A program made the translations under genes and the position numbers. Shown one piece after another: positions 27,419 to 59,653 of a DNA stretch of 64,000 nt (positions are counted from its first letter, which is position 1; each line of letters opens with the position of its first letter). The stretch covers positions 1,612,001-1,676,000 of the forward strand of contig CM066310.1 of the NCBI GenBank assembly GCA_033807695.1, read 5' to 3'. Source of the stretch: Daedaleopsis sinensis (lineage: Eukaryota; Basidiomycota; Agaricomycetes; Polyporales; Polyporaceae). Below the pieces are notes generated by a model, which saw nothing but the letters and a program-made list of their open reading frames with translations, ran no database searches and had not been told where the DNA came from.

Positions 27419-27490
27419 GAGTCGTATACACAGTCACTTGCAAGTCCCCGGCCTAACAGACCGAATGGACTTGCAAGTACCATGCAGTGC
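27419..27490 (+). repeat. Left terminal inverted repeat of the giant element
   Basis: Begins GAGTCGTATACACAG and includes the hairpin arms ACTTGCAAGTCC (27436-27447) and GGACTTGCAAGT (27468-27479) around the conserved core GGCCTAACAGACCGA (27450-27464). Confidence 0.78.
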
Positions 27491-27933
27491 TATTTGACTC
27501 ACAGGATTGGACGAAGGATAAACGGATATCGGAGTCTTGATCAAGCGTGCGCGACTTTGATAGGAGACAGTTGGTGCGCGCCGATAAGGGCGGGCCGGGT
27601 CTGAGACGGTCTTAGGCACACCCGTCTCGCCGAAGATGGACCCTGATGGACCTCACGCAAGAATGTCCGCGAGCGACCTGGCCCCACGGTCCATCGTTTG
27701 GACACCGGTAAGATCGATAGCAGGCACGAGGGCGGACGCGGAGGCAAAAGGCGCGTGATGTCATAGCCTACTGTACATACACGCGTGACGTACTAGTAGG
27801 TCCAATCTATTACGATTGGAACCTGTATATTACAGTCTCCAAACCTTGTTTTAATGACGAACGAGCGGGTGATACGGCGTATGCACGCGTCGCGTGCAGG
27901 CCCTCGATATTTCAAAACTGCGCGTGCATTAGT
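27491..27933. other. Left subterminal region of the giant element
   Basis: About 440 bp between the left terminal repeat and the copia 5' LTR. Short ORFs have no recognisable content; no gene is called. Confidence 0.5.
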
Positions 27934-28538
27934 TGTTGAACTTGTGGTTAGTTGTACAGATAGAAGTGTGTTACACGCTATGGACACAGCCTCATACGAT
28001 ACTTCTCTCGGTTATCTCGGTTACCTTTTATCTCTCGTACATTGTTCCCTATATAGCAACTATTGTACTTTCATTGCTTCTCTTCTTCATTTGTCGTTCT
28101 ACGTCGCTACAGATCACTTCTCCTTGGTCAGATGATCACTCCTTTATTCCTTCTTTAGATATCTCTTTGTTTCTACTGAGTCAGCTACGCACAGCACGAC
28201 TCAGCTCACTCCGTTCCTCATGAGTCAGCCTCGTACTGCCTGACTCATCTCGTCACATGTCTCTCCTCTAGTCGCTTACTCATGCTGCTCCTATACGGTA
28301 TATAAGGAGGGACTCTTTGGCTCGGACTCCTCAGTCTTTTGCTCACTGACTGAGGAGTAAGTACACTCACCTACATATGTTCTCTTATGCTTTACTTACA
28401 AGTATCTACAGCGCCCTTCCGTGTGTTTCTAGGTACTTGTTCATCTATGCTAAAGTCTTTTGCTCACTGACTGAGGACGCCCTTCCGTGTGTCTCTAGTC
28501 GTTGCGTCTCTTTGCCTTCACAGGTTCAGACTTCATCA
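27934..28538 (+). repeat. 5' LTR of the copia element
   Basis: 605 bp, TG...CA ends. A TATATAAGG box near 28300-28308 is the likely U3 promoter. It also holds repeats of the palindromic TGAGTCAGG/TGACTCA kind (about 28188-28250) and of CTCACTGACTGAGGA (about 28340-28355 and 28463-28478). Confidence 0.93.
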
Positions 28539-28555
28539 GGTTATGAGCCCTGCGC
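28539..28555 (+). other. Primer binding site, half-tRNA(iMet) type
   Basis: GGTTATGAGCCCTGCGC directly abuts the 5' LTR. It is the reverse complement of GCGCAGGGCTCATAACC, the anticodon stem-loop part of yeast initiator tRNA-Met (from memory of that tRNA), not of its 3' CCA end. Priming by a cleaved internal fragment of tRNA-iMet is known for Drosophila copia and yeast Ty5. Confidence 0.75.
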
Positions 28556-29059
28556 TCTAATCTAGTTGCTAGTCGACATTCACGCGCAAGTATCCGTCGA
28601 CCCTCCGCCCGTGCACTCCCTCCACTCTTCCCTCACTCTTGACTGTGCCCGCCGACATTGCTACCAGGGGGACTTTTCTGCGCTCGTGACGCAGCCCTGA
28701 GTGCTTTTACCTAGCTCTACTAGTTGCTCGCTGTACCAAACCCTTTGTGCTCTCGAGGCATACGGGTTCTTTTGCTATCCCTCAGCCAGGCCTCGCACTT
28801 GCGACTGCCAGCTGTTGACCCGGGGTGTCTATCACCTTTGGACCGGAGGACAACCGTTTGGACCCTCCTTACGATAGTTTGTTTCGGTACTACAGTACTA
28901 TAGTTCTTCTGGGCACAGTTGGCGACTTCTACACTGGTTCATTGGGGATACCGACTCTCTGACTTACTGGTTCACCTCAATAGGTGTTCATCTCTACGTC
29001 GTCCTTTGCACGAGGCACCTCAAACCATCGCGCTTCCCTGAACCTTTCGCTTCGACACT

Positions 29060-32000
29060 GTGGCGACTCCTGTCGATTGCAGTCACCTCTACCACAGATA
29101 CGACAACGTCCTTGAAAAGGATTACTGCTGGGACGAGTCTGAAAGAGAGTGGTATCCTTGTGAAATTGGACAACCTTGCCCTAACCGATACAACGAGGTT
29201 GCTGCTCCGGACAACGTCAAATTCGACGAAGATCACGAAGCCCCAGCAGAAGGACAAAAAATTGTTGTCACACCACCTCAGACAGCAGTCGTTCCATCTC
29301 CTACTCAAGTCTCCTCTCCCAATCCTACTCAGATCCCTCTTCCTGAAGAGACTTTCGACGAATTAACTCCATTAGTCGAAGTCACTCCTGTTCCACCTCC
29401 AACCGTCGAACCAACTCCTCTTCCTCCAGCTCCTACCACTACTCTTCCACCTCTTCCTGCTTCCAACCTTCTTGCGGACGTTCCTGACGACACTGGTTTT
29501 ATCCTCTCGATTGCCATGTCTGAAGCCGGTCTCGAGAAGAACCTCCCGACTCTTCGTGGTCAGGAGGGGTATCGGGAATGGTCTCGTCAAATGATGGGCT
29601 ATCTCCTGATGGTCGATGCATGGGAGATCGTCAACGGCACGGAGACTACGCCTACCGATGCCAAGGAGCTTGCTGATTGGAAGAAACGAGATGCCCGAGC
29701 TCGTGGTATTCTCATGTACAAGACGGACTCGGAGGTTGCGAAGATCTACGAAGGAAAGACCTCTTCCAAGGATATTTGGGATGCCCTCAAAACCACCTAC
29801 GAGAAGACGGACTCTGGACATGCTTTCTCCAAGTTCGAGAAGTTGCTCAATACGCCTAGGTTTAGCGAGTCCAAGCCGATCGCTGACCAGGTGAACAGCT
29901 TCATCAGCGCTTTGAAGGAGCTCACTTCTACTGGTTCGAGCACCTCCATCGCTGAGCATCTCAAGGTTTACTGGTTATTCTCTCGCATGCCTGATTCCTA
30001 TCGCCCTGCTATCTCCACCATTCTTCATACTACTGAGGAGAAGGCCTTGACTCTCGACAACGTCAAAGCGAAGTTGAAGGTCGAGGACTCTCTTCGGGAG
30101 ACGTCTATTGGGCAGGCGAACAAGATCGTCAAGTCGAAGGGCAAGTTCCCTCCTTGTAAGTGGTGCCAGGGTACGAACCATGACCCTAGTCGCTGCTTCA
30201 AGAAGTACCCTCACTTGAAGGACGAGTTCGATGCGAAGAAGAAGGGCAAGGGCAATAATTCTGGGAATAAGGGAAATGGACAGTCCGCTCAAACCGTTGC
30301 TGCTCCAGCCGGTCTCAATGTATGCGTAGCTAATGCCTCGAGCAACACGATCTCGGCTTCTTACTATGTTGCGGCTCACACCGCTTCTGAGGGACATATT
30401 GCGACTCATTGGCTCATGGACTCTGGTGCTTCTGAGCACATAACTGGTCAGTTCGACGATTTCATCAGCTTCACACCTTACAAAAGCCGGAAGTACTTCA
30501 ACACTGCGAACAGCGGTGACTCCGGGCAGGTGTACGGTGAAGGCGAGGGAATTATCCAAGCCCAAGCCGAAGTCGACGGTCAGCGTACCACTATTGAGCT
30601 CAAGAAAGTCTGCTATGTTCCAGCCGCAGGTCATCTTCGTTTGTTCTCGACTGGCGCCATTGAGAAAGCGGGCAGTTTCCTTTATCAAGGGGATGGAAGA
30701 ATGAGCATCTTCACCTCAAAACCTGTTGGTCAGGTCGCATCAGGATCGACGATCACTGTCGCTGGGAAGAAGGTCATCGAGGCCCGCCATCTTCCAAGTG
30801 TCAATCTTTACATCACTCATTTGTGGATACCCGAGAAAAATCGCTCTGTTCAAGCGGTTCCTAAGTCTCTCCCTCACGATCTCGTTCACCAACGCTGGGG
30901 TCATCCTGGCAAGGAGGCCGTAACGCGTATTCCTAAGGCCGTTGAAGGGGTTCCCGATGTAGGACCCGCTTCGGACAAACCTTGCGACGGATGTGCGAAA
31001 GGCAAACAGCATCGTGCTCCGTTCCCTCCCCACTAGCTGTGGTAGTTCTGATGTATTACAAACAGGTACTTTGTCTAAGCCTTATTGCAATAGGAACAGG
31101 CAGGGCATATGATGTATTACGAAGCCCTGGGGAGGTCCTGGGCACCATCAGCTTGGCAAACCCAATTAGGCAAAAGGGCACAAAATGCTTGATATCTGGC
31201 AAATTAAGCACATCAAAGGCTTATCTCTATAGATAATAGCACTATTAGGCCTGTCCTGGGCGCGCCTTTGGGCGCTTATTCTCGTTCCAGCATTCCCACA
31301 CCTCCTGCACCTGATTAGATAATTTGCTGGGGGGCTACTATAGGTGGGGGATTGGTTCCACTATTGCTCCCTCAATTCTGGATGGATTTGGATGGTTGTA
31401 GGTGCATTGGAAAGGTATTAAAAGGGACGTTTAAGTGCATTATAGAGGGGGTATACTCCAGCTACATGCATGCTATAAATTGCGACCTGATAGGCATAAA
31501 TGCAGGTTTTCATTGGGGTATAGCCTACTTAATTCTAGGTGGGCATATGGGTGTTCTATCTTCCTAGAATACAGTACAAGAGCACTCTCCAACAAGCCCA
31601 TGATCATAGAATTTGATCCAGTGGTTGGGGAGATATACTTTCCCTGCCCCATAAGGAGGAGGAGGGGTCAGTGTATCTCTACTAATTATGGTCAGAATTC
31701 TTTCCAGTTTTTTGGAATACACTCTACATATATACTTGGAAATTGATCCACAAAACCATCCGGTACCACCACCCTCTCCTCCTGACCCCATTAAATAGGC
31801 ATACGCTTATATCTCTATGAATCGTTAACTAAATCTCATGCTCTCTTTGCTGATGGATAGCTACATACATATTGTATCTGTGTGCCCAAAATTGGACCCA
31901 CAGAAGAAGAACTAGATATCTGATTCTACACATGTAGTAGTCTGGTATACCAAGCTGTTAGTGCAGATATATGTGTGTCTCAAGTGGTCTGCACCACAAT

Positions 32001-35000
32001 TATTTTTTTGCATGACACTACCAAAGATCTGATGTTGCATACACATAATCACCTTCAGTACCTATTGAATGAGTACAAATTTATTGGAAACAGTGAAGAA
32101 TTGCATGATATGTGGCCCATACACAGATTAAGACTTTAAGACACTTTAAGACACTTTAAGACACCTGCCACAGACACAGTGTCCGGCAATATAATTGTAC
32201 ATGTACACAGTCTATGCATGAGTTCTGGTCATAGGTTGTTAAGCAGTAAATGTAGCTACTAGAGCCACATAGCAGTAAGCACATTCATGCAGAAATAGAG
32301 GTTTTAGAGGGTAATTAGAGTACATGAAGGGCAGGAGGAGAGGATGGTAATACCGGATGATTTTGTGGATCAATTTCCATGATATTTATACCGTTAGAAA
32401 GATACATGCTGTGGTTTTCCAGCAATATATTTACCATCAGTGTCCATCACGAACTGCACATTATATTTAGGATGGAACACCTCTGTGGCTGAAGTATTAG
32501 TTGCCTCCTATATATAGCTCTTGATATTATATGACCAGGACTTATAGCCACCCTACATCTAGTATATATGTAGAGTGTATTCCAAAAAACTGGAAAGAAT
32601 TCTGACCATAATTAGTAGAGATACACTGACCCCTCCTCCTCCTTATGGGGCAGGGAAAGTATATCTCCCCAACCACTGGATCAAATTCTATGATCATGGG
32701 CTTGTTGGAGAGTGCTCTTGTACTGTATTCTAGGAAGATAGAACACCCATATGCCCACCTAGAATTAAGTAGGCTATACCCCAATGAAAACCTGCATTTA
32801 TGCCTATCAGGTCGCAATTTATAGCATGCATGTAGCTGGAGTATACCCCCTCTATAATGCACTTAAACGTCCCTTTTAATACCTTTCCAATGCACCTACA
32901 ACCATCCAAATCCATCCAGAATTGAGGGAGCAATAGTGGAACCAATCCCCCACCTATAGTAGCCCCCCAGCAAATTACCTAATCAGGTGCAGGAGGTGTG
33001 GGAATGCTGGAACGAGAATAAGCGCCCAAAGGCGCGCCCAGGACAGGCCTAATAGTGCTATTATCTATAGAGATAAGCCTTTGATGTGCTTAATTTGCCA
33101 GATATCAAGCATTTTGTGCCCTTTTGCCTAATTGGGTTTGCCAAGCTGATGGTGCCCAGGACCTCCCCAGGGCTTCGTAATACATCATATGCCCTGCCTG
33201 TTCCTATTGCAATAAGGCTTAGACAAAGTACCTGTTCGTAATACATCAGAACTACAACAGCTGCTGCCCTCCCTCTGACAAACACTCTGAAGGTCCGTGC
33301 GATATGATCCACATGGATTTAGCCGGCCCGATGAGTACCTCGATTGGTGGTTATAACTACTTCTCTGCGTACATCGATGACCATTCTGGACTAGCTGTTG
33401 CGACGTCCATGAAGAAGAAGTCAGATCAGATCACTGCCTTTAAGGACTTTAAGGCGTGGGCTGAGACGCAGACTGGTCGTAAGATCAGAACCGTACGATC
33501 CGATCGAGGAGGGGAATACATGTCCGAAGAATTTCAGGCTTTGCTGCGCGAACAAGGGATTGAGCACGATAAAACTCTCCCTGGGACACCACAACAGAAT
33601 GGACGTGCTGAGCGATGGATCCGTACGATTACTGAGAAGGCTTTGTGCATGCTTCACTTTGCCGGCCTTTCTCACGGATTCTGGAAACTTGCAATTGACG
33701 CCGCCGTTCATATCTATAATCGTCAACCTATGCGTCGCCTCAAATGGCAATGCCCCATTACCGTCTGGTCAGGAAAGAAGCCTGATGCTTCCTACTTCCG
33801 GGTATTTGGGTGTAAAGCCTACGTTCACGTGCAGAGACAGCAAAGAGATGGGAAGCTCGATCCGAAGGCGGTCGAGATGATCTTTGTGGGCTATGAGCCA
33901 GGTTCCAAGGGGTATCGTCTATGGAACCCAGCCTCCCGTCAAGTCGAAGTCTCACGCGATGTAGTCTCCGACGAGACTGTTTTTCCTGCACGTAAGGACA
34001 CCGGCAGTCGTCGTTCTACCCCCGACGACAGTCCATTTCCGAACCTCCGTGATTCAGAGGAGTCTGACGATCAAGTCGACGCCGATGATCCGGACCTTCC
34101 TATACCTCCTCCTCCTGACTCTCAAGATGACGAGCCTGCTCCAGTTCCTGCTCAACCTCAACAACCACCGCCGCAAGCTCCGCCCGCTAATCCTCCTCCT
34201 GTAGTCCAAGCACCTCGTCCTGACCACCGTCGCCAACGACATCCTCCTGTCGCAGAACCCCCTCGTCGTTCTACTCGTGAAAACAAGGGACAGCATTCCA
34301 AGCGGAATGAGGACAATGTCTACGGTGATGAACCTCCTGCTCAGATAGATAGACGGACAGATGATGATGGACATCAGCGTGAGGCGGAAGCAATTCTATC
34401 GTATTTGCACTATTCCCGGTACAAGTCTGGCATTCCTGAACATCATCGGGACGCTATGGCTTCGCCGAATGCGGCACAGTGGCAAGAAGCGGAACGTTCG
34501 GAGTATGAGTCTCTCATGGCTAACAAGACATGGATCTTGGTTCCTCGTCCTAAGGACCGAGCCGTCGTCAAGTGCCGATGGGTCTATGATCGCAAGTCTG
34601 ATGGTCGCTTTAAAGCTCGCGTTGTAGCTAAGGGTTATACGCAAGTCTATGGGAAGGACTACAACGAAACCTTCTCACCTGTTGCTCGATTCGAGTCCAT
34701 CCGGTATCTCTTTGCGCACGCTGCGCTAGAGGACTGGGAGATCGATGCGATGGATGTAAAGACTGCGTTCCTGAATGGCGATCTGGACGAAGAGATCTAC
34801 ATGGAGCAACCAGAAGGTTGGGTCGTTCCTGGCAAAGAGGATCATGTTTGTCTGCTTAAGAAGGCTATCTATGGTCTTAAGCAAGCCTCGCGCCAATGGA
34901 ACAAGAAGATCCACGAGTCTTTAAAGGAACAAGGGTTCATTCGGACCTACTCTGATGCCGGAGTCTACGTATATCGCCGACAAGGGGAGGATTACGTGAC

Positions 35001-35976
35001 AATCGTTGTTCTGTATGTCGACGACCTACTTCTCATGGGTCCTAGTCGCAAACGGATCGACAACGTCAAGAAAGCGTTAGGCAAACAGTACAAGATGACG
35101 GACTTAGGTCCGCTTCAACGATTCCTTGGTCTACGTGTACGTCGAGATCGTCACTCGCGGACTCTTGACATTGACCAGGAAGAGTACATCGACGCCATTC
35201 TGGAGACCTATCAGATGGTGGACTGCAAGCCTGCGCGCACTCCTCTTCCCGCTGGAGCTCTTCTAGTCCAAGCTACAGTGTAAGCATCGGCATCTCTCCT
35301 CAAGCGTTTCCAGAGTCTACTCGGCAGTCTTCTCTATGCCTGTCTCGGAACGCGACCGGACATCTCCTTTGCCATCAGCCGTCTAGGCAAGTATGCTGCG
35401 AACCCTTCGGATGAACATCTCACCTACCTCTTCTACGTTCTCCGATATCTCAAGGGTACAAAGCATTACTGTATACCCTATGATGGTGCGACCAAAGCTG
35501 GTTTGATCGGCTATTCCGATTCAGACTGGGCTGAGGATCGTGATGATCGGCATTCCCAAACTGGCTTCGTCTACCTGATGGCTGGTGGTGCAGTCTGCTG
35601 GACGTCTCGTCGACAGTCTACTGTTTCGCTTTCTTCTACTGAAGCGGAATATAAGGCATGTTCGGACGCTAGTCGTCAGATGATGTGGCTAAGGACCTTC
35701 AGTGATGAGATTGGGGACGACATCTCTTCTGCAACACCTCTGTGTATCGACAACCAGGGTGCTATCTTCCTTGCAGATAACCCGTCTGTTGACCGAAGGA
35801 CCAAGCACATTGAAGTGCGCTATCACTTTGTACGGGAGTACATCGAAAGTGGGAGCATGGACATCTTCTATGTTGAGTCGAAGAAGAACTTGGCAGACAC
35901 CCTGACGAAGAACGTCTCCTTCTCTATATTGGAGTACTTTGTTAAGGAATCTGGTCTTGTTACTTCCGCGTCTTGA
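29060..35976 (+). pseudogene. Copia Gag-Pol polyprotein, interrupted
   Basis: One frame runs through the whole polyprotein, except for the nested element (31031-33266) and a TAA at 35281-35283. Order: an acidic and Pro-rich N-terminus; a Gag domain (about 29520-30110); a CCHC knuckle CKWCQGTNHDPSRC (about 30157-30200); protease LMDSGASEH (about 30413-30440); a pre-integrase HHCC finger (about 30885-31020); integrase with the Asp of MIHMDLAGP (33307), the Asp of RSDRGGEY (about 33497) and the Glu of NGRAER (about 33600); reverse transcriptase with YVDDLLLMG (about 35014-35040); RNase H with SDSDWAEDR, SSTEAEYKA and DNQGAIFLADNP (35510-35790). The frame has no ATG before 29516; the stretch from about 29042 is open but starts near GTG, so the start is unclear. 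The lone stop separates RT from RNase H, so the copy is probably not autonomous. Confidence 0.9.
31031..33266 (+). mobile_element. 2236-bp long-inverted-repeat (foldback-like) element, copy A
   Basis: Inserted in the copia pre-integrase/integrase junction, with a 7-bp duplication CCCTCCC (31024-31030 and 33267-33273). Removing it restores the copia frame. Arms of about 705 bp (31031-31737 and about 32560-33266) are nearly identical inverted copies. The termini are CACTAGCTGTGGTAGTTCTG (left) and, read inward, CAGCAGCTGTTGTAGTTCTG (right). The centre holds a second, shorter inverted pair (31738-31786 against about 32334-32383) and a tandem TTAAGACAC triplet near 32133-32163. It is strikingly AT-rich compared with its surroundings. 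The small ORFs in the arms look like decayed coding DNA; no transposase is present. Confidence 0.88.
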
Positions 35977-35987
35977 ACGAGTGGGAG
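35977..35987 (+). other. Polypurine tract of the copia element
   Basis: Purine-rich ACGAGTGGGAG sits between the polyprotein stop (35974-35976) and the 3' LTR, where plus-strand priming is expected. Confidence 0.6.
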
Positions 35988-36592
35988 TGTTGAACTTGTG
36001 GTTAGTTGTACAGATAGAAGTGTGTTACACGCTATGGACACAGCCTCATACGATACTTCTCTCGGTTATCTCGGTTACCTTTTATCTCTCGTACATTGTT
36101 CCCTATATAGCAACTATTGTACTTTCATTGCTTCTCTTCTTCATTTGTCGTTCTACGTCGCTACAGATCACTTCTCCTTGGTCAGATGATCACTCCTTTA
36201 TTCCTTCTTTAGATATCTCTTTGTTTCTACTGAGTCAGCTACGCACAGCACGACTCAGCTCACTCCGTTCCTCATGAGTCAGCCTCGTACTGCCTGACTC
36301 ATCTCGTCACATGTCTCTCCTCTAGTCGCTTACTCATGCTGCTCCTATACGGTATATAAGGAGGGACTCTTTGGCTCGGACTCCTCAGTCTTTTGCTCAC
36401 TGACTGAGGAGTAAGTACACTCACCTACATATGTTCTCTTATGCTTTACTTACAAGTATCTACAGCGCCCTTCCGTGTGTCTCTAGGTACTTGTTCATCT
36501 ATGCTAAAGTCTTTTGCTCACTGACTGAGGACGCCCTTCCGTGTGTCTCTAGTCGTTGCGTCTCTTTGCCTTCACAGGTTCAGACTTCATCA
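35988..36592 (+). repeat. 3' LTR of the copia element
   Basis: 605 bp, identical to the 5' LTR at a constant offset of 8054 except for one base; followed by the duplicated TTAGT. Confidence 0.95.
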
Positions 36593-37260: not shown

Positions 37261-37651
37261 CGTCCTCGACTCGCCGGCGGCTATGCTCGCCCCGCCATGA
37301 TAGAGTTCGTCGGGGAGCCTGCCAGCTGATCGTCGGGGAGCCTGCCAGCGACATCTCCCCGACGAGCACTATCACGGCGAGCACCCCCCACAGCTGCGCT
37401 CGGTAACGTTGCACTGGTAGAGTGCAAGGCTACCTACTCATCCACGACCACCCTGCATCTGCGGACACCACGCGTCCACGCACCCCAACCCCACGTCCGT
37501 ACCGCCACACGACGCGTGTCCGCGTCCACCACGCGTCCACCACAGTACGCATCCTCGTCGCCTACCTCGGTGGCCGCAGGCCGAACACGTCCTCCCGCAC
37601 CGCACGTCCGCCCGCACGACCCGTCCGGCGGCAAGACCAGTCCTCCCACCA

Positions 37652-37960
37652 CGTGTACGACCTCCGCGCCCCCCAAACGTCCACCACAGCACGCGGGCCC
37701 TCAGATGGGCGTATAAGACACCTCCGCGCGCACACACCGCGTCTTCCAGCACCCGTCTTCCAGCACCACGGCTGCGTCCAACATGACGCGTCTGTGGGCA
37801 CGCGCGCGCGCCCGCGCGCATGACAGTGCACGGGCGTGCGTCCCCCGTCGCACGTTGCACGTGTACAACCTCCGCGCCCCCCACACGTCCACCACAGCAC
37901 GCGGGCCCTCAGATGGGCGTATAAGACACCTCCGCGCGCACACACCGCGTCTTCCAGCAC
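37652..37960. repeat. Tandem duplication, about 208 bp apart
   Basis: A block of about 100 bp (CGTGTACGACCTCCGCGCCC ... TCCAGCAC) at about 37652-37755 recurs with few changes at about 37860-37960. Its end forms the start of the 144-bp array that follows. Confidence 0.7.
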
Positions 37961-38505
37961 GACGGCTGCGTCCGACATGACGCGTCTGTGGGCACGCGCG
38001 CGCGCACGCGCGCATTACAGTGGAACGCAGCCGTGGTGCGTCCCCTGTCACATGACGCGGCCGCCCCCACGGATACGGCCTAACGCCCTCGCGTCTTCCA
38101 GCACGACGGCTGCGTCCGACATGACGCGTCTGTGGGCACGCGTGCGCGCCCGCGCGCATGACAGTGGAACGCAGCCGTCGTGCGTCCCCCGTCACACGAC
38201 GCGGCCGCCCCCACGAATACGGCCTAACGCCCTCGCGTCTTCCAGCACGACGGCTGCGTCCGACATGACGCGTCTGTGGGCACGCGCGCGCGCATGACAG
38301 TGGAACGCAGCCGTCGTGCGTCCCCCGTGACACGACGCGGCCGCCCCCACGAATACGGCCTAACGCCCTCGCGTCTTCCAGCACGACGGCTGCGTCCGAC
38401 ATGACGCGTCTGTGGGCACGCGCGCGCGAATGACAGTGGAACGCAGCCGTCGTGCGTCCCCCGTGACACGACGCGGCCGCCCCCACGAATACGGCCTAAC
38501 GCCCT
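37947..38505. repeat. Minisatellite, four copies of a ~144-bp unit
   Basis: Units start with GCGTCTTCCAGCACGACGGC at 37947, 38091, 38235 and 38371 (spacing 144, 144 and 136). Each ends CGGCCTAACGCCCT. Differences are few and largely in a CG-alternating stretch (GGGCACGCGCGCGC) whose length varies between copies. Confidence 0.88.
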
Positions 38506-44484: not shown

Positions 44485-44871
44485 GTCGTATAAAGTCTAG
44501 CGGAGAGTATACGGAGGGGGTAGTTGCAGGTCGCGGGAGACGAGAGAGGAACGGTAGCGCGAGGGAGGACAAACTAAAGTAGTCCCACAGCGGGGGCGAC
44601 TGACTCACCTTGAACGGGTTTTATCCCCCAAAATCATCGCTTACACCCCCGTATCTTCGGTTTGGGCTGAAAATTTCGGATCAGACTAGTGCGGCCGAAT
44701 GGCGTTCAGGTTCCCGCGTGGATACGGGCGACTTGGTTCAGCGCCGAGTCCGAACGATCGTATGGAGGCGGTACGAACACCTGATAAACCTATGGTACTC
44801 GGCCGGGTCTTCGTTTTATCGAACAGCTTGGGTCAGCCCAGACGTGGCTCAAGCCTCGCGCACGGACCCAC

Positions 44872-46109: not shown

Positions 46110-46382
46110 GGAGGCAGACGGTGGTCGGGTTCAGAAAGACACGGGCTACGGGCGTCAGTGATACAAAGCGCGGTTCATGTCAGCCTCTTCCTTCTACGAT
46201 TGAACCGAGCCCTGCGGGTGTATTTACGCATCCAGCTAGTACATAAGAACGAGTGACGATGTGCTATGCGGCGCTGAGACTGATCTATCGTGCTTCGTAA
46301 CCCTAAGTCGCTCTCCCCTTGCCCTTCTTCTGTCTGTCCCTGTTCGAAATCAGTTCTGGCTTATCATCGAGTAAGCATCAAC

Positions 46383-48174: not shown

Positions 48175-48361
48175 GGTGAGATAAGTTAGCGATGGAAGAG
48201 GCGCATATCGGGCGGGTCATGTCTTCAAGGCGCTCAAGCAAAATAACAATACTGGGCACGTGACGTTAGTTTCGCATTATTTACCGCAAGATGAAGCACT
48301 CACCAAAGCGGATCTGATTCTGGGTCACTGTTTCGTCATCTGTATATTACAGAACGATGTA

Positions 48362-50908
48362 CTATACGATAGATGGGGCGGGATACGGCACAGGCGGGGT
48401 GGGGAGACGGGCAAACGTTCTTACAAATGTGCGTACATAGAACCCTACTGCTGCTTCCTGGATGCTCGCAAACTCGGCCGAGGATAGGTTACGGTCAGCG
48501 GCAGCCACGAGTAGCGGGGGGCACTCCGGCCAGAGGGGCATGAGAGAGACAAAACTCCGGAGGGCATCGTGAGCGACACCATCCTCAGCAAGAGGACCCC
48601 AGCGGAACTTGCGGTCTTCTTCGGGATCCCGAGGGACAATTGACATGACCGAAGACGGGGTTCCCCAGACGGAACTCACGGTGGACTCGCGTTGCCATCG
48701 GTGAACCTGCCACCAAGATTCCCGATGTGCAAGGAGGGTGTCCAGCGCCATCAGCTCCGCCCGGAAGTTCACCTCGTGACACTCCCACAGGACTCGTTCG
48801 CGAAGACGGAGGTCCGTGCGCGCCCCAAGTACGTCTACCTCCAGGTCCTCGTACTTGACGGGTCCTCCGAGCGGGTCGTACGACGGCAAGCGCGCTACCC
48901 GTGATATGAGGCGACTGACAAAGTTGTGGCCTTGTTGCCGACGTTCCGCTCGGCGTAGGTCGGCGGGAGAACCGTGCGCCATCACCTTGTGTTCCTTGGG
49001 GCTGTAATCACCCCATAAGATCGCACGCCACTCCGCGATCGTCAGGGGGTCATTAGATAGGGAAGGGTCCAGGATGCGGGCGCGAAGAAACGGCCGGATA
49101 CGGACGAAGTTGTGGACGTAGCGGGAGGCCTTGTCGTCGAAGCGCCCCCAAGTGCGCCGCGCCTCGGGGACGAGGGCCAACAACGAGCGGTCGTCCAGGG
49201 AGTCGAGCAGGAAAGGAGGTGGATAGAAATAAAGGGCGGAAGCCGAAGTGCGAGGAATGGGTGAGGCGGCCCGAAGAGCGGCTTCCCAAATCAGGGGAAC
49301 GTCTGTAAAAGGGGAGGGGACGAAACATTTTGCCGGCTGAGGCGCATTCGGGTCGGAGGTGGATATCTCCCCTTGTTCGCCAACGCTCTCGTTTCGGGCC
49401 CCAACGTTGGTGTCCGCCGCTCGCTGTCCCTTGCCTTTCCCTCGCGCTCCTCGCCGCCTTTTACCGGAGGGCTTTGCTGCCTGGCCGTCGACGGACACGC
49501 CCGCTGCGCGCATGGCGATATGTCTGCTATCCCCCTCGGGTTCTTCTAGTCGCGCTCGCTTCCGGCTGGACTCCGCCGTGTCACCTGGAAGCCGGCGAAC
49601 ATCGGCAGAATCAGGGACCTCGGCGACAGTTAGCGTGGCGAGGTGAGTGCCACCGAGATGTTTCGAGACTGCGAGGACCATGTTGCGTTGCCAGACGCCG
49701 GTCATATTGGCCACCCCTGCGATGCCCGTCGGGCGATGGTAGATGGGCGGGTCGCAGGGTTTGTCCGACACGTCCCTGGGGAAGTGAAGAACTTGCACGA
49801 CCTCCCACACTGCGAGCTTGTGCGTCAGCGGTTGAAGGAACCAGACGGGAATCCCAACCCTTGTGAGAGTCGCCGCATCGGCTCCTTCTCGGACGAAAGC
49901 CCCGATGACAGGCAGGACGTCACGGGAGTGGTCGTCGCCCGACTCTATCCGCGGCACGACGACTTCCATGTACGTCTGTAGTCCGAGAAGTTCTAGGGTC
50001 AGGCGCTGGACATGCGCTGCGACGGCGATGGTAACCGAAGGGGTCGCGGGGGCGTGGCGGAGGCGTTGGACGAACTGTCGCAGGATGGTGATCACGAAAC
50101 GAGCGTATTGATGTACGTTGGGCGGCGCGACCATGCGCTCGCAGCCCTCGATGGCCGATTTGGCGTGCGTCATGAAATCTTTCATCATCTCTGGGACGAT
50201 GTTACCCATGCCGCTGAAGCCGATGGTCGTGTCCGGTTTCCAATGTTTGCGCGCTTCGAGAGAGACCCGGAGTGCCTCGGCTGTTGGACCCGTGGAAGAC
50301 GTCGGGATGCAGGCCAGGTGCCACCAACCCCGAGTGAGGTCCTGCGGGCTGTGACTGTACTCGTGAATCCCCCACTTGCCGTCGTTGAACGTTTCAATGA
50401 CGGCAGTCTCTTTGGGATAGGGCGGGACGTAGAGCTGATTTGGGGAGGTTATGACCATGCGGTCGAACTCTCCGCGCGCTGCCACCAACGCCTGATACCA
50501 TTTGGTCACCTTCGGGGCTGGCGGATACGGTTAGCGTAATACGAGCTGCACGGCGGAGAGTGTCACCTTTCGTGCGCCGTGTAACTTTCAAAACAGGAGG
50601 GGCGGACGCTGAGTCCTCATCCTCGCTCCGCTCCGACTCGGAGGAAAACACAGCGAGCGAGTCCGGCGCACTCACGCTGAGCGCCGCCGTCGAGCTACAA
50701 TGCCTCTGTTAGCTGCGATCGGGTGCGGAATTAACAACCGAGCGTACATGGTGGGCACATGTATAATCCCCGCGACATCTTCTACGACCCCCGACGGATG
50801 TGGGTCCGGCGCCTGTGGATCGCTTGGGGTGGGCTCTCGTACAATGCGCTTGAAATTTGGAAACTTGGGGCGAGGTTTGATTGCTGAGCTATCGCCGGAC
50901 GACGCCAT
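48362..50908 (-). CDS. Large unknown protein (giant-element resident)
   Basis: Predicted start at the ATG at 50906-50908 (MASSGDSSAIKPRPKFPNFK). Two short exons encode a disordered, Ser/Glu-rich N-terminus (FSSESERSEDEDSASAPP). One uninterrupted exon of about 2.15 kb (50509-48362) follows, long for this gene-structure style. It reads VTKWYQALVAARGEFDRMVI, GWWHLACIPTSSTGPTAEAL, IVPEMMKDFMTHAKSAIEGC, GVWQRNMVLAVSKHLGGTHL, a basic patch (KPSGKRRRGARGKGKGQRAA), FVPSPFTDVPLIWEAALRAA, WRAILWGDYSPKEHK and CHEVNFRAELMALDTLLAHR, then ends PAPSIV. Total about 800 residues, probably nuclear given the basic patch. I recall similar proteins only as uncharacterised agaricomycete sequences; no catalytic motif is evident. 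No stop or frameshift, so it seems under recent constraint. Confidence 0.65.
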
Positions 50909-52572
50909 TTGGGGTTACTGATGATGGGGGTTGCAGGTCGCACTCACCGCGGGCTTGATGGGTTGCAGAGACGTGAGGGGCGGAGAAGGTGTTGAAGGGG
51001 GCCACCGAGAGGTCTTGATTCCTGGGCGAGGGTTTGAGGGAGTCGCGGGATCCTGGGGATAGGTCCGACACCGAGGCGAGGGTTGGAGATCGTCGCGGCG
51101 CAAGCTAAAGCGTTGCGTGCGGCAGACCTTGTCGGCAGATCTGCGAGCGTCGGCGCGCGTATCGCGGGGCACAACACTCAGCAGATAGTAGAGCGGTTTG
51201 AAAGTAATTTGAGAGCTCCGTCGCGTCAGAGGGAGCAGAGCGACGTGCAGGAGATGGCGGAGAAGGAGGAGAGCCTTCGCGTCCCAAACGGGCGTGCTGG
51301 GGGAAACGCCAGTCGTGGGAACCATCTATTGTCACATGACGCAAATTTTTGAATCCGCGATTGAAAGTATTAACACAGCTGTATAACGATCGATCAAAGC
51401 TCTGTCATCTCTGCAATACAACCCCAGTTACATCATAAGCTACGGTACTAACAACCGACATAGGAACTTTTGCGGAGGTCAACAAGATTCCAAGTCCGAC
51501 GACGCAGGACTTGCGCCCGTCCGGCCGTGCTCTTTGTCTCTCGCCTCTACCTCGACTGTACGCCTTAACTCCTGCACCGCCGCGAGTACGCCCCGCACCA
51601 CCCACCGATCACCTGGGCGCGACCTTGCCAGCTATGTAAGCTCCAAGGTGCGTCCGGGACACCGACGCAAGTGATCTCCGGACGGCAGCAGCCTCCGATG
51701 AGAGAACTATCCGACCCACGACGTGACCCCGACCATTTCCAAACGACGGGCAGGAGCATTGGACACCCTACCGCTCTGCCGACACCCTTCCTTTCGCAAA
51801 CCTCGGCCCAAACCCATGGGATATGCCTCATCCTTGCGCGCCGAGGCGAGCAGGTAACCAGCTGCTGTCGGTACGACAACGTGTACCGTATGGTAACAAA
51901 GTGTGTAACTCATATGCCAATGCTCACAGGAGCTCTAACGGCCAAATTCGGAGAGATTGTGGAGGACGTGAACAGGGACGGGACACTTTGGGGAACAGGT
52001 AAGCTTTTTTTCCTGTATCCATTATCCAAACCGAGATTGAGGTTGCACGCCGTCGGCATCAGTGCAGCAAACCGCATGGCACGGGAGGAACACGCAACGC
52101 CACTATACCCGGCGAACTGGGGTGGACGTGGCGGGAGCGAACACTTGGGGTCCTCGATGTGAGTCGTTCCTCGTGGATATGAACATAGGAACTTTTGCAC
52201 TCATGTCCCACACACTCAGGTATCCCAGTCTCAGTGTGTTGATCCGTTGTTTGCGATAATTACATGATATGAACCATTCAAATCGTCAATTGCGGCCATG
52301 TCGGGCATATTTGTGAAGGTTCCGCCCAGTGAGGGGGCAGTTAGAGCCCCTCCTATACATTGACTACACTCGTACGTCCATGCTCATGGTAAGATTGTTG
52401 TGTAATATTGCATGAACCCGGCATCCCGATGAAAGCCTACGATGGTGGACTGTGTGGGAGGCCATCGGGCCCCATGCCCAATTGGGACTGCACCTCATAT
52501 GAAAACCGCCCGCCCGACCCCTGTTTCCTTTCAAATTTCCTGCTACCTCCCGCCTTGCCCCCCGTTTCCGCC
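50909..52572. promoter_or_regulatory. Divergent intergenic region upstream of the KDZ transposase
   Basis: About 1.66 kb between the unknown 800-residue protein (minus) and the KDZ transposase (plus). No gene is recognised. It contains a 16-nt direct repeat (ACATAGGAACTTTTGC) at 51458-51473 and 52183-52198. Confidence 0.5.
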
Positions 52573-55500
52573 ATGGGTCCTCGCCGTCCGAAGATACCTG
52601 GGCTGGGTAGCGCAGCAAGCTTGCTCGCGCGCTCCGCCGCGACCCCAATGACGTCCAACACTGGCCACGACGGATCTGGCCCCACGGCGGAAACCCCAAC
52701 GCAGAGATCATCACGCCATGCCTATGACTTTTCGGGAGGAGGGGAAGGAAGGTCTGGCATGGGTACGCCGGTCAGTTTCATGGCATCAACATCCTCCACC
52801 GAGCCACCTGCGTCGGCCTCGCCGATGGTGGCGGGAAAGGCAGACCCGACGACCACAGAGGCAGCGGGGAGACCCACGACATCAGCGCATGGCGGGGAAA
52901 GTCAGGGGCCTAGCGCCAGCCAAAGGCACCTGGTACGTCACGTCTGCATCGTACGTATCATTTTGTAAACCTCTGTTGCAGCCGTCCAGAAAGATGGGTG
53001 CGTTCCTCGACAAGCACGCCGTCCATGCCCGCAATTGTTTGGACGCCAGAGAAACACCACCCGAGTGCACAGAGTGCCCAACTTGTCACGTCTCGGACGA
53101 CGTTGCGCGAGTATGGTACCGGTGTCAAGACTGCCCCTTAGCCTCTACGCAGTGCGGAGAGTGTATCCTGACCTCGCACCAGACACGGCCGTACGACAGG
53201 ATCCGCATGTGGAACGGGGACGATGAGTATTGGGCCAAGACCACTATGACCGAGCTCGGTTATGTGATGCACCTGGGGCACGGCACTTTGTGCTGCCCGC
53301 GAATAGCCACCAAGGGGGGTGGGCCTCCTGCTTCGACGTTCCTCCGCGACATGACTGTCGTCCACGAACGGGGGCTGATGAAAGTCACAGTGGCATTCTG
53401 CCGTTGCGACCCGCGGCGAGAGGACGGCGAGCAACTCATCGAGGGTGGACTCTGGCCGGCCACCTGGGCCAGTCCACGCACCGCGACCACCATCTCCGCG
53501 CTCGAGGCCTATCACGGGTTGCTGATCGAGACGAATACCAACATCCACGACTTCTCAACCTATCTCAAGTCACGCACGGACGCTGTACTAACGGAAGATG
53601 TCCCAGTGAGTCTCTCCCGAAGGACGGTACGAAGGACAATCACTGACCGCATTTAGGAACGATACCGGGAGGTGAACGACTCTTTCCGGCAGTACGCATT
53701 TATTCGAGCATGTCAGCGAGCTGCCGTCGACCCGACCCGGGACATCAAGCCGCGGGTGTTGACAGCGTTGTGTCCGGCGTGTCCCCAGCCGGATATCAAC
53801 ATGCGCGAGGGATGGGAGGGTCGTGACGAGAAATACCGGTATGGAGATTTCCTGCTGGTTCAGCACAATCTGAATATGTGCGACAGACATGTCGACGCGC
53901 TGCACATAGCCCTAGATGGCAACTTCCACTTCAATTTGAAACACAAGCACGCAGACCCTGACGACGTGCCGCTCTCGATGGGGGGCGGATACTTTGTGCA
54001 CGAACAGGATTTTGCTCATTATATCAAGCACGTTCCCAAGCCGAAGGACAAGGAGGTACAACGACCTCATTAACGTCCCATGACAGCAGCTGACCGTCTT
54101 TCTCAGAAAAGTACGTGCTCCAATTTCGGCGCCATGGAGTATGGCAAGTATCGAGGGTCGGTTTCCGGGATCGTGGCCGTGCTGTGTCGGCACATGTGCA
54201 CGCTTCCGGGCTCGGTCGTAGATCTCGCCAACAAGGAAGGGTACGCCACCCCCGCGCATCACATTCGCTCACTATGCTGACGTCAGGTCAGCTTCATCTA
54301 TATCGACATCGCGCTGGTGTCCGCGTTGCAACCCTACCTCCCACTAAAACTGCTCGTGATCATTTACGACATTATGTGCCAATACGTCATACGAATAGGG
54401 TCCCGACTCGCCCGGGAGTTCACTCAAGAAATGCTGGACGAGCTCGAGTCGATCAGTTCAGCAGACCTCCCTACGATACTGGCTGCGATCGGGAAATGGC
54501 ACCTGTCCATGCACACGCGCGAGTGTCGCCAGAAGTTCTCCCTCAACCTACTACCATGCTCATGCATGGACGATGGGGAAACTTGCGAAAGGTTGTGGGG
54601 TCTCATCAACGCGATCTCGCGGTCGACGAAGGAGATGACGGCCGGACACCGACATGACGTGCTCAACGACATCCTGGACGCGCAGAATGTCAAGCACCTA
54701 CATCAAATGGGTGAGTCCGACCGATTTCGGAGCATCCATGTACTCAACTAGCGCAGTGACGTTCCTCGTGGCCAAGATGGCACGAAGTGAGGAGAACCTG
54801 AGCCAGACGCAGGAGTACGTCAAGATCCTCGAAGACAACATAGTCGAACTACATGGCCAGGAAACACTCGATGAATGGAAGGCCCGCGAAGCAGCATGGA
54901 AACGCCAGGCTGTGGACGTCAAGCAACACGGGGACCTGCCGAATGAGTACGAGTTGGCACCCACGATATGTAAGCCTTGGCCCATAGTAGTGACCATTCA
55001 TTCACGAAGCTCATGTCTGCTAGCGTTGACCTCCAAGCAGATAGCCGCAAATCTCTTGCAAGAGCTCGCGGAGAAAGGAGATCACCAAGGGCATGGACTA
55101 GCCAGTGTCATGCACGACATCCTGGAATTAGAAAAGGCCAGGTGCATACGAACGCAATATAAGCGGCGCAGAGAGCGACTGACATATCTCCCAGGAGCGT
55201 GCTGCGCGAGGACGTCAAGACAATGCCGAACAGCCAGAAGCAAATAGCGAAGTTCTCCGAGAGATTACAGGAACTAGCAGACAAGGCCACGACCCTCAGG
55301 CACAGGCGCGATGAGTTCATGCAGCCCGCCGTCAACCTCGCGTTCGAAAACATCGTGCGTGCGGGGTCTTGGGCGCAAGAACCGAATTCGCCGCCCGATG
55401 GTGCTTCTTCCGCTGAGGACACGTCGAGTGACAGCGGCGCGGAGGAGGAACTGCGGGGAGATGACGCGGCAAGTACACCGTCCAAACGCGCGCGCGTTGA

Positions 55501-56691
55501 CCCGGACGCGCCCTATTCGACACCGGACCTCGCGACGTACTTCAACACGTTTCTCTCGCCGCAGCCGCCCTCGTCTGCATCAAAGCAACGAGCATCAGGT
55601 TCATCATATCTCATACCCGCCCAGGTAAACGCAGATCCCTCCGACAGCTCTGACCCGGAAGATGCATCGCGCCATGCGTCTCCCAGCTCACACGCGGACA
55701 AGCGCAGGAAGCGCAAACGAGGACACGCCGCCGCGAAGATGCGTCACAAGCTCTCGAAAACACTCGAAGCCATTCCGACCATCCCACTACCCTCGGACTA
55801 CCCTGCCGCTTTCCGGGAAGACGAGGCTATGTTGGACGCAGTACGAACCGAGCGGGAACTGCGGCAGGGATACGCGCACGAAGCCCTGGACGACCTTCGC
55901 ATGCAGCTGATGATGCACGCGGGGGTTCAGGACCGCAAGAAGCACGTCAGCGGCGTGAAGCGAACAGCTCCTGTGGACCACCGACTGGATGCCATGAGAG
56001 CCGCGATGAACATGACGAAAGCGCGATATCGCGCAGAACGTGAGCGACTCATCACGTTGGGGATGGCGCGCGACGACCCGAACCTCCGCGAACTCCTGGA
56101 ATCCCATTGCCAAGCCTTCGTGATCGTTACCGAGGAACAATGCATCGGGGACAGTCAGCGTGCCCCATCCTGGCTATGGGGCAACTTTTCCTTCCTAGCG
56201 AAGAAGACGGGGAAAGACATCACGGAGTTTCTGTTCGACAGTAAGTGGACCAGTCACATATCAAAGCATACCCGCTAACTGACCCACCAGGTTTACGAGT
56301 CCACTGGTTCCGGTATAGTGCACTTCTCTCCCGGTGGACAGAGGAGAATGAGACGGTGTCTGAAGAGATGTTCCGGACGAAACAGAGCTACCGCAAGAGC
56401 GCGGCGACCTGGGCAGAGCGCGCGCAGGACCGCAAAGTCCAAGGCCGCCTCGGGGCTGCGGCGTACGCGCGAAGGTAGATACCGATGTGTGAAGACATTG
56501 CCATGACGCTGACCAACCACAGGCAGCATGTTCGTTTTCGTCGATTGCTTGCGAGAGCGGAGGAGAGATTCCCGAACGCTGTAGATGAGGTACGTTCTGA
56601 GTGGGGTGCGAGCGCGACAAATGCTGAACAAAGACACCGGCAGGGTATCGGCATGCCGCATGCGCGCGCAGCGGGAGTGGCGACAACGTAG
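52573..56691 (+). CDS. KDZ-family transposase with CxC2-like cysteine cluster
   Basis: Predicted to mobilise the giant element. Start at the ATG at 52573 (MGPRRPKIPGLGSAASLLAR), a disordered N-terminus. The CxC2-type cysteine cluster (about 53080-53560) has CTECPTCHVSDD, YRCQDCPLASTQCGECILTS, HLGHGTLCCP and FCRCDPRR, followed by PATWASPRTATTISALEAYH. The KDZ catalytic region (about 53750-54700) has CPACPQPD, ALDGNFHFNLKHKHADPDD with the first Asp, LLVIIYDIMCQYVIR with the second, and GKWHLSMHTRECRQKFSLNL then DDGETCERLWGLINAISRST with the Glu. This is an RNase H-like DDE arrangement. Helical regions follow, then an acidic, Ser-rich section with a KRRKRKRGH nuclear signal (about 55700), and the family C-terminal RVHWFRYSALLSRWTEE (about 56297-56350). 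About nine introns; no disabling change noticed. Kyakuja-Dileera-Zisupton elements are abundant in agaricomycetes. Confidence 0.86.
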
Positions 56692-57598
56692 GAGAGAGCT
56701 TGCATATGTACACAGCAAATGAACCATCACACGCGAAGTATGTCCTAGAAGGGGCGCGGAGTACGCCCAGGATGAGTTCGACGCGCGGCGCCACATGTCA
56801 CGTGGGCGCGATTTAACACATATGCGATTCACAGAAATGTCATCGAAGGGCAGCTGGACATCGCTCGCGCATGGGTCACACTCTCGCGAGCGAAGCCCTG
56901 AGCTTCACGCGAGGCTATAAGTCCTTGTGAACGGAACAACACAACCGCTTCGGGCGGTGTCGCGCGCGCCACGCCGCGCGACAGATCACGTGTGCGCGTC
57001 GTGTAACCATAGGTGCGGATGAATGCGCGCGTGGTAGGGAGCATTGCATACGCCCGAAAGCCCGCGATCGCAAGCCCTTGGGGCTAACATCATCGGGTAC
57101 GCTCTATCGCGCTGCTATCCGTGGGTAACCGTACGGTAAGTACCCTCCCGATGTGGATTTGCTGAATGTCTACAGCCCCCCAAGCTTCTGCACGCATTGG
57201 ACAGACAGCGGACCAGGATTATACCGGCGCTCGCAATCATTGCCCCAACTCGGACTCGCTACATTGAAAAACCAGTGAGTGCAAGATACTACTCGACGGG
57301 CTGGCTGACCACCGCGGCCATTGTATGTGTTCGTGTGCCTCGTGTCCAGGTAGCCCTGACCTCGGGAGGGTTGTGCTGGACACTCGCACAGCGCCTTTCG
57401 ACACGAGCCGTCTCGCCCCGAAGCTCGCCTGCGCCATTTGGACCCAGCCTAGCTAGCTACCGCACGAGGTGAGCGCGTTCGCAGAGTTGACGACCTGACA
57501 CCTGACAGCACCGTTGTTTTCGGGTTTGCGCGGCTGTTACAGAACGTGCCTCTACCACATCGACGCACTTTCCTTACGACAAGAAGATTGTGACCACT
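56692..57598. other. Intergenic region between the KDZ and GIY-YIG genes
   Basis: About 900 bp with no recognised gene; includes GC-rich palindromic words (TGTGCGCGTC, CACGCGCGC) around 56790-57030. Both neighbours are on plus. Confidence 0.5.
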
Positions 57599-58517
57599 AT
57601 GGCGACCAGACGCCAATGCAGCGGGAGAACGCATCGTGACAGGCGCTGCCAGCGGATGGTACCCATCGAACAGGAGCTGCAATATCCAAACTGGTTGGGC
57701 GCACGGATTTACTGCGCGGATCATCTCGCTGTAAGCCTGCGGGAGACGGCGTTCCGCTCGAGGAGAACGCGCTATCAATATGTGCACTACGATGGTACGT
57801 ACGCGCTATGGTATCAACGACGATGGCTGCTAATGTCAAATAGATTTTATTCCTTCCAACCTTGAACCGCGAACGCAAGTCGCATTACGCGAAGAGATGC
57901 GGCGACCAGCGAGAGAAGGTGGGGGCAGCGGCTACATCTACGCTTTAGAGCTCTTCGGTAAGCCCACTAACGTCACCGCGCGAGACCGCGACTTTGATTT
58001 TAGCTCAGAGCGTAGCACGCCGGACGTGGTCTACATCAAGGTGGGCTACACAGAGGGCCTGAACCGTCGACTTTCGCAGTGGTGGCACAATTGCCGCACC
58101 TCTCCGTATACCCTCCTCGGATTCTGGCCATGCGAAAGCGACGACGACGTCATTACAGCGCACCCGCAAGTAGGACGTCCCTCGCCCCATGTCAAGATGC
58201 TGGAGAGGTTAGTACACTACGAGTTGACAGACCGTGCTGTCAATGCGCCGTATCTGGATGCGGGCACCCGTCCACCGGGAGCCATCACTGGAGGTCGTCG
58301 CCAAGGCCCGCGGATGGCGAGAGAGTATTGCCGTACATGTGAGTGTTCGGCCGTACAGTGTGACCGTACTCACCCGTAAGGACGCGCAGGCCGGGTAACG
58401 CACCAAGAGATCTTCGCGTTCGCACGTTTGTCGGGATCAGATCGCGGGTGGGAATGGGAGCGGATAGTGCGCCCGGTGATACGTAGGTGGGGGAAATTCG
58501 TGGAGGACTACGTGTAG
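57599..58517 (+). CDS. GIY-YIG / T5orf172-type (DUF1766-like) protein, giant-element cargo
   Basis: Start at the ATG at 57599 (MATRRQCSGRTHRDRRCQRM), an N-terminal cysteine/histidine motif like those that introduce this family (CSG-T--DR-C). After an intron (57794-57842) the core reads GGSGYIYALELFGKPTN (the GxIY strand), VVYIKVGYTEGLNRRLSQWW (the KVGYT strand with its Arg), PYTLLGFWPCE and VKMLERLVHYELTD (helix with the catalytic-type Glu). A second intron (GTGAGT...CGCAG, about 58340-58388) joins CRTC to RVTHQEIFAF, completing the usual C-x2-C...H-x-E-x-F zinc/strand motif. Stop at 58515-58517. The fold is that of GIY-YIG nucleases; fungal members are uncharacterised. A DNA-cutting or DNA-binding role linked to the element is an inference from position. 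Confidence 0.8.
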
Positions 58518-59581
58518 AACTCGCCCAAAGCACACGAGGCAAAAGTACTTACAGCGGATATCGAGACGCACACAACAATTTCAGGTAAAGGCAAGCCCGT
58601 GGGGCGTGATATGATCATTTGGTTGTAACTCCTCAGTAATACGTACTACCTACAGCTCCTCTTCGCTACACAAGAATTGTGCACAGACCGGTTTGCGACA
58701 GACCTCGCAAAACTGATGTTACCCCGGCGTGGTGATGTACACTCGCGCGCGTCGGGCAGTGGTAGTGCGAACATGGCGCGCGACTGCCTCGCGCGAAGCC
58801 TCGGATGTTAAACTGCGCGTAGCCGGCGAGGTACGACTGTGATGTCAGTGTTGGAAGAGCTTGATCGCCGACGGTAAGTGGCCGACGATAAGTGGCCGAC
58901 GGTCCAGGCCGATGGTACGTGCCTCGCGAGATACATCGGATTCGGGGAGTGTGCCTGAACATGCGCGAGAATCGGGGACAGATAGGGACAGTCGAGACCG
59001 TACGGGTGGCGCGGCACGCACGACGACGCGCCATTGACACCACGCCCGCCGCCAGTCGGGAAGCACGTCCGAGCGTAACTGATCTGCAAACATCAGGACC
59101 CATTGTAAGTAGTGAGAGCGGGCGAACAAGGAGGAGCGAAGCAGGGAGGAGGGGCGAACGAGGGAGGTGTGCCGACGACCGGTATGGGGCCAGTGGGAAG
59201 GGGCAGGGGCTGACCGCTGAGCGCTGATGGGATCAGCGGGAGAGGGGCGGGACGTGCGCATGCGGTACGAAGGAGCTTGATGCGCCACCCGATAGGACGG
59301 GCGCGAGTTGCGCCCGGGTAGCTCAGACTGAAGGTCGACGTCCTCCCGTGTCTAGCCTACCCCTGCTCGCTCGAGGTTGCTCTGAGCTCTGAGCAACCTC
59401 GAGCGAGCGAGCAAAGAGCGGTGTGTGTGTCGGAGGGGTGGAGAGCGGGAGAGGAGCGGGAGAGGGGCGCGATCGGAATGCGGGACAGGGGCGGGATCGG
59501 ACGACATGGCGTTCGGAGGGGCGGACAGCCGGGCGAGGAAGATAGCAGAAGGACCTGCGGGCCAATGAGAGGGCTGGGGGT
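58518..59581. other. Right subterminal region of the giant element
   Basis: About 1.06 kb without a recognised gene. From about 59100 it is purine-rich on plus (GGGAGAGG/GCGGGA words) and contains a strong hairpin. Overlapping ORFs on both strands reflect this composition. Confidence 0.55.
59365..59408. repeat. Perfect 18-bp-arm hairpin
   Basis: Arms GCTCGCTCGAGGTTGCTC (59365-59382) and GAGCAACCTCGAGCGAGC (59391-59408) with an 8-nt loop TGAGCTCT. It lies about 250 bp inside the right end of the giant element. Confidence 0.9.
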
Positions 59582-59653
59582 GCACAGCTTGGTACTTGTA
59601 AGTACTCTCGGTCTGTTAGGCCTAGTACTTAGAAGTACCTGTGTATATACTAC
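59582..59653 (-). repeat. Right terminal inverted repeat of the giant element
   Basis: Reverse complement starts GTAGTATATACACAG and shares the core GGCCTAACAGACCGA (59608-59622) with the left end. Arms GGTACTT.TAAGTAC and GTACTTAGAAGTACC make a hairpin around it, as at the left end. Confidence 0.78.

Follow-up and report, generated by a model that had tools for sequence, protein, structure and literature searches.

A 32-kb insertion in Daedaleopsis sinensis is probably a copy of a large KDZ-superfamily transposon with a fixed gene module

Results

The 64,000-nucleotide stretch of Daedaleopsis sinensis DNA analyzed here (the window; positions 1612001-1676000 of contig CM066310.1, called C11, in a scanned genome of 51.6 Mb and 24 contigs) contains one inserted DNA transposon, which we call E1. 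E1 occupies window positions 27419-59653 (32,235 bp) and encodes a KDZ transposase and a set of minus-strand genes. It is bounded by a left terminal repeat (27419-27490, plus strand), which begins GAGTCGTATACACAG and has ACTTGCAAGT-type boxes arranged as a dyad, and a right terminal repeat (59582-59653, minus strand), which begins GTAGTATATACACAG on the reverse strand. Within them, the inverted arms at 27425-27490 and 59582-59647 are imperfect, with 80% complementarity over 66 nt. A perfect 7-bp target duplication, CCAGACT, flanks the unit (27412-27418 and 59654-59660). Fusing the flanks with a single CCAGACT copy yielded a 61-residue minus-strand frame that spans the junction. By our reading of neighboring frames, rather than by a domain match, the host gene may be F-box-like. 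A preliminary description of this DNA had proposed a 32.2-kb unit bounded by inverted termini of about 72 nt, around which a host frame closes, and both points were borne out; the target duplication, given as 7 bp and nearly 8, is 7 bp and not 8.

The transposase gene (52652-56480, plus strand; 3′ border approximate) consists of multiple exons. A CxC2 cysteine cluster (within 52652-53653; E = 7.6e-22) precedes the KDZ domain (PF18758; 53900-54688), which scored 124.7 bits against a cut-off of 26.6, confirming the transposase that had been proposed. C-terminal frames follow at 55163-56275 and beyond, and these pieces hold their order in two diverged relatives, F1 and D (see below). Since the plus-strand frames between approximately 52650 and 56500 all belong to a single transposase gene, there are fewer separate genes than frames. 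A genome scan with the KDZ family gave at least 175 matches, with exons counted one by one; thus, KDZ elements are abundant in this genome.

Upstream of the transposase, on the minus strand, lies ORF722 (48365-50530), a conserved 722-residue stop-to-stop frame with no known domain. It corresponds to a protein described earlier as an unknown of about 800 residues, a length that did not hold. Its predicted fold is confident (pLDDT 84), and the model has no convincing match among solved structures. A protein search, in which the 7993 candidates with the most shared words were scored, gave 73 relatives at E ≤ 0.001. Those with source names come from polypores such as Ganoderma, Lentinus, Trametes, Cerioporus, and Rhodofomes and are annotated as hypothetical or uncharacterized.

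Four further genes lie on the same strand. Gene C (46386-48216) has several exons with approximate borders, comprising frames 47461-48216 and 46386-46982 and one between. A PDB search gave four matches at E ≤ 5, each of them an entry with an HMG protein (best E = 0.014). A three-row profile gave a best E of 0.0043, with two of 11 matches at E ≤ 1 not being HMG proteins, and there was no Pfam match at E ≤ 0.1. The likeness repeats in three elements, as judged by eye, and the HMG assignment, also made in the preliminary description, is weak. Gene B (45261-46130) is conserved in F1 and in the clusters D and G at about 30-38% identity and by eye contains two copies of a unit of about 100 residues. 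Gene A (43738-44496) contains a C..C cysteine-cluster stretch of about 65 residues conserved in the same three. Gene X (40059-43387, mapped by alignment) is split here by nested DNA and is an intact 362-residue open frame in another copy, E3 (E3 positions 3977-5062); its equivalence between families E and F is by position and a motif seen by eye, without a match.

To find other copies, we searched the genome with both E1 ends, which gave 22 and 24 matches, and tested six facing pairs for a duplication. Five of the six had a perfect 7-bp duplication. Family E ends have the form GAG..TAC, with left ends beginning GAG and right ends GTA. In addition to E1, the five comprise E2 (C11:1075840-1112805; 36,966 bp; ATCACTC), E3 (C2:4341585-4362901, minus strand; 21,317 bp; CAGGCCA), E4 (C4:3234826-3300255, minus strand; GCCTGTA), which is swollen to 65.4 kb, and E5 (C5:1637007-1654614; 17,608 bp; GAAGTTG). 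E3 has no nested inserts, and its frames are open throughout. The same ends also bound a 620-bp copy (C8:3480963-3481582) and, outside the duplication count, a pair 0.4 kb apart (C3:1972110-1972531). E5 is a short element like the C8 copy (99%), enlarged by nested inserts with weak, below-cut-off matches to reverse-transcriptase and integrase-type domains. Family E ends therefore flank both large, autonomous-looking units and short ones that keep little else.

Comparison of the large copies revealed that E1 and E3 are 92% identical in their first 0.5 kb, 98% identical across 38898-40574, and 94% identical across 42810-59653 (16.9 kb). E2 is 84-94% identical to E1 over 42810-57031, while its arms (about 5 kb on the left and 2.6 kb on the right) are unrelated. 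The right-hand 11.9 kb of E4, the part that was read, is 92-95% identical to E3 but skips E3 positions 18611-20226. E2 also contains a 13.9-kb insert within ORF722 (C11:1088499-1102375) that has its own KDZ and CxC2 matches and, by our own reading, CA..TG ends and a 7-bp duplication, AAATTGG. Thus, KDZ elements nest in one another.

Clusters elsewhere in the genome match E at 65-69% DNA identity. For one, F1 (C2:669187-692225; 23,039 bp), we identified both ends, which share the GAG and GTA starts of family E, a 55-nt terminal repeat (84%), and a 7-bp duplication, CCGGACG. The flanks of F1 are part of a repeated host block on C2. Four of the five listed paralogous stretches (C2:640369-642873, 646709-650609, 654352-658298, and 697627-700676) cross the F1 insertion point without the element, and the matched sides overlap by 7 bp; the fifth stops before that point. 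These empty sites are the strongest evidence in our data that the whole 23 kb moved as one unit.

Two more clusters are D, on C10, and G, on C4. Translated comparison revealed that the order A-B-C-ORF722, followed by a divergent transposase, is kept in E3, F1, D, and G, with the G transposase placed from genome-wide ORF722 and CxC2 scans. ORF722 of E3 is 52% identical to that of F1 and 54% identical to those of D and G, which are 90% identical to each other. The right arm of F1 contains a 332-residue frame (L059:3133-4128) with no Pfam match. Parts of it match beside other KDZ matches (for example, at C6:3054824, C1:4964640, and C10:899108), and it is possibly another right-arm gene that accompanies KDZ elements.

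We determined how closely ORF722 is linked to the transposase across the genome. Scanning gave 28 matching stretches, which resolved into 16 strong loci (E < 1e-40) and five weak ones; for CxC2, 98 of 99 matches were used, the weakest being dropped. Of the 16 strong loci, 14 have a CxC2 match at a distance of 2.3-3.1 kb, always in divergent orientation, compared to a chance expectation of about 2% per locus. In a transposase tree, the ORF722-linked rows fall on one side of a branch with 99/98 support (10 rows versus 4). TET/JBP genes have a different arrangement, as all 22 matches to PF12851 among those listed lie 1.0-2.0 kb from CxC2 on the same strand, and none of them is within 117 kb of any ORF722 locus. 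TET-bearing KDZ elements are therefore common in this genome.

These data bear on whether E1 could be a smaller, ordinary KDZ transposon, carrying the transposase alone, that is nested in a separate repeated host block. Known KDZ elements are 9-11 kb where their published sizes are readable, and 84 of the 98 CxC2 matches are not the nearest neighbor of a linked ORF722 locus. However, no further inverted pair of at least 25 nt surrounds the E1 transposase, the copies align straight through this region, E1, E3, and F1 are bounded at their outer ends by terminal repeats and 7-bp duplications, and the empty sites accommodate the entire 23 kb of F1. We consider such a nested element scarcely credible.

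To ask which genes are maintained, we compared substitutions between E1 and E3. The ratio of non-synonymous to synonymous substitution rates (dN/dS) was 0.15 for ORF722 (181 synonymous and 101 non-synonymous changes) and 0.25 for the GIY-YIG gene described below; three transposase frames gave 0.23, 0.03, and 0.16. Mismatches in the same blocks concentrate at third codon positions. Purifying selection thus acts on ORF722 and the transposase. The synonymous rate dS was 0.44 in ORF722, compared to 0.006-0.02 in genes A-C, indicating that E1 and E3 are mosaics, most simply explained by exchange between copies.

Purifying selection could also reflect a host role, and E1 could in principle belong to a KDZ-bearing remnant or domesticated cluster whose genes are kept for host function and whose mobility is over. 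The insertions that split gene X in E1 and ORF722 in E2, together with the swelling of E4, would fit such decay. Against this, the frames of E3 are open throughout, and a second F element, F2 on C4, is 100% identical to F1 over 6.0 kb and 7.2 kb (13.2 kb in total) and 96% identical over a further 0.8 kb, in a comparison that covers the outer stretches of the element. This identity points to recent movement; a recent segmental duplication could also yield it, but the F1 flanks have no match at the F2 site. We regard a remnant or domesticated cluster as improbable.

A GIY-YIG (T5orf172) gene (57834-58376, plus strand; E = 3.3e-8), which the preliminary description had recognized, is present in two of the four large copies, E1 and E3, and is unmatched in E2 and E4; the stretch that E4 skips in E3 contains it. 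Related frames elsewhere in the genome gave 21 matches. This gene and parts of the arms, alone, behave like variable passengers. The left arm of E1 also contains GC-rich tandem repeats (37519-38564) whose arrangement differs between E1 and E3.

Part of the DNA of E1 is nested and foreign to the unit. A nested long terminal repeat (LTR) element (27934-36590), recognized by its LTR pair and named as copia in the preliminary description, and two elements of approximately 2236 bp are all absent in E3. The first of these two lies within the LTR element (31030-33266) and has CA..TG ends and a 7-bp duplication, CCCTCCC, while the second (40575-42811) splits gene X and has the duplication GACGATC (ends and duplications by our own reading). 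They are near-identical, with internal inverted arms of about 702 nt. Their ends are related to the ends of the 13.9-kb insert in E2, and they are probably short Kyakuja-like relatives. Beyond E1, the window contains a separate F-box-like match (61572-62144; E = 0.0031, under the Pfam cut-off) and a Plavaka transposase match (22408-23559; E = 4.6e-10).

Discussion

These data are best accommodated by a model in which E1 represents one copy of a large cut-and-paste DNA transposon within the KDZ superfamily. Stripped of its inserts, the transposon would measure about 21.3 kb, and it would belong to a sub-lineage with a fixed gene module. We assign this a probability of roughly 0.87. The estimate of about 21 kb in the preliminary description agrees with the insert-free E3, and copies with the same ends, gene order, and 7-bp duplications do recur. 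The genes were not found as a syntenic host region, the ends do not recur around unrelated DNA only, and the KDZ gene has no smaller repeats of its own, the three outcomes against which that description had set itself.

Several observations weigh against this model. No transposition event was observed in this sequence analysis of one genome. The E1 site has no uninterrupted paralogue, as the halves of the junction frame match just the two flanks (two matches). The 620-bp C8 copy has neither matching flanks nor a 7-bp duplication, at least seven end-like places have no partner, and no ends could be identified for D or G (for D, in the part of the region searched). Two of the 16 strong ORF722 loci, C4:1455904 and C5:198838, are more than 5 kb from CxC2; at the latter, a divergent CxC2 match is 18 kb away. 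The five weaker loci (E of 1e-6 to 1e-10) lie outside the linkage count, and one of them, C4:3347139, adjoins a CxC2 match but shares its strand. The transposase tree was built from one 156-residue exon, has long branches, and lacks a row for four of 18 sources. Genes A-C each differ between E1 and E3 by five to seven changes, too few for dN/dS.

The stretch C4:3347139-3349052 is distantly ORF722-like (25-28% identity) and lies 1 kb from its same-strand CxC2 match, an arrangement that is possibly an older form of the ORF722-CxC2 association.

The preliminary description had likened E1 to a Starship. Starships are very large fungal mobile elements that carry accessory genes, are moved by a tyrosine recombinase "captain," and have cargo that varies freely between copies. 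In such a reading, E1 would be a KDZ unit whose captured host genes are cargo swapped between copies. The patchy presence of the GIY-YIG gene with its many relatives elsewhere, the stretch lacking in E4, the unrelated arms of E2, and the mosaicism of E1 and E3, which suggests exchange between copies, would all fit. However, A, B, C, and ORF722 keep their order and orientation in diverged KDZ elements at 52-54% ORF722 identity, the opposite of opportunistic cargo, and no host-type metabolic or resistance domain was found in the long frames scanned. Because of this fixed order, and because ORF722 goes with a single group of transposases, we consider these four genes the element's own. The cargo reading of the core genes is largely refuted, and a Starship-like carrier is unlikely overall.

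For the KDZ transposon that we favor, the CxC2-KDZ transposase would bind the dyad-containing terminal repeats, excise the unit, and reinsert it where the target is cut with a 7-bp stagger; this would account for the 7-bp duplication. Short elements reduced to the ends would be moved in trans. The module of A, B, C, and ORF722 most likely aids transposition of the long element by assembling, bending, or protecting it, or else acts against silencing. As a possible DNA bender, the HMG-like protein may draw the distant ends together, while ORF722, A, and B may have structural or anti-silencing roles. The module would take the place held by TET/JBP in the other KDZ elements of this genome. More tentatively, and at somewhat less than even odds, E and F may represent an old, distinct polypore sub-lineage in which this helper module (ORF722, the HMG-like bender, the zinc-cluster protein, and B with its duplicated domain) replaces the TET/JBP anti-silencing enzyme, such that one genome would harbor two mutually exclusive accessory strategies.

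Large fungal cargo elements have been discussed mostly as Starships, and E and F are instead classical terminal-repeat transposons that reach 21-23 kb and carry a conserved set of genes. Their TET/JBP-bearing sister KDZ elements in the same genome provide a natural comparison of the two strategies, and the role of the accessory genes, in synapsis of a long element or in escape from silencing, becomes testable. For annotators of polypore genomes, dozens of "hypothetical proteins" akin to ORF722 can now be read as likely transposon genes.

Comparison with known systems

E and F resemble Starships in being fungal mobile elements of great size that contain accessory genes. In contrast to the captain-driven Starships, they have a KDZ transposase with terminal repeats and a fixed gene set. 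A Pfam scan revealed no tyrosine recombinase in the long frames of E, with short frames and exons partly covered. Eight Starships have been reported from the basidiomycete Tremella fuciformis (PMC13066641), and giant elements in basidiomycetes thus have a precedent. Among algae, CACTA families enlarged to 16-20 kb occur in the red alga Chondrus crispus (reviewed in PMC6431247). These are likewise classical DNA transposons grown to a similar size with several genes, although in another transposase superfamily and another host; the likeness drawn here is one of size.

Within the KDZ superfamily, KDZ1, KDZ2, and KDZ3 of Cryptococcus are 9-11 kb, have terminal inverted repeats of 139-241 bp, and have been shown to move actively (PMC12810828). 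They encode CxC1, and KDZ1 makes target duplications of 8 bp, compared to 4-8 bp in KDZ2 and KDZ3 (PMC12810828). They share with E a KDZ transposase with a CxC-type cysteine cluster and long terminal inverted repeats, while E is 21 kb, encodes CxC2, and makes 7-bp duplications. Measured against these 9-11 kb elements, whose sizes are readable, the earlier statement that E1 is far larger than a simple DNA transposon was fair. Intact Pleurotus KDZ elements have CxC2 (PMC7641404), as E does.

The described Kyakuja families make 7-bp duplications, have CA..TG ends, and lack terminal inverted repeats, and TET/JBP-bearing Kyakuja have been reported in Polyporales (Kojima, 2025; PMC12730594). E and F share with them the KDZ transposase, the 7-bp duplications, the presence in Polyporales, and an extra protein gene beside the transposase. 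They differ in having GAG..TAC ends and clear terminal repeats (66 nt and 80% in E1, 55 nt and 84% in F1), and the ORF722 elements have, in place of a nearby TET/JBP gene, a conserved four-gene array. In contrast, the nested 2236-bp elements and the 13.9-kb insert of E2 fit the Kyakuja pattern of CA..TG ends and 7-bp duplications. Our literature search, covering the titles and abstracts shown, found nothing describing this KDZ group; subscription papers, including the founding KDZ paper, were mostly outside its reach. The PF18758 domain, a CxC2 cluster before it, and a bounded unit with a 7-bp duplication are all present in E, and E and F look like an undescribed branch of the KDZ superfamily.

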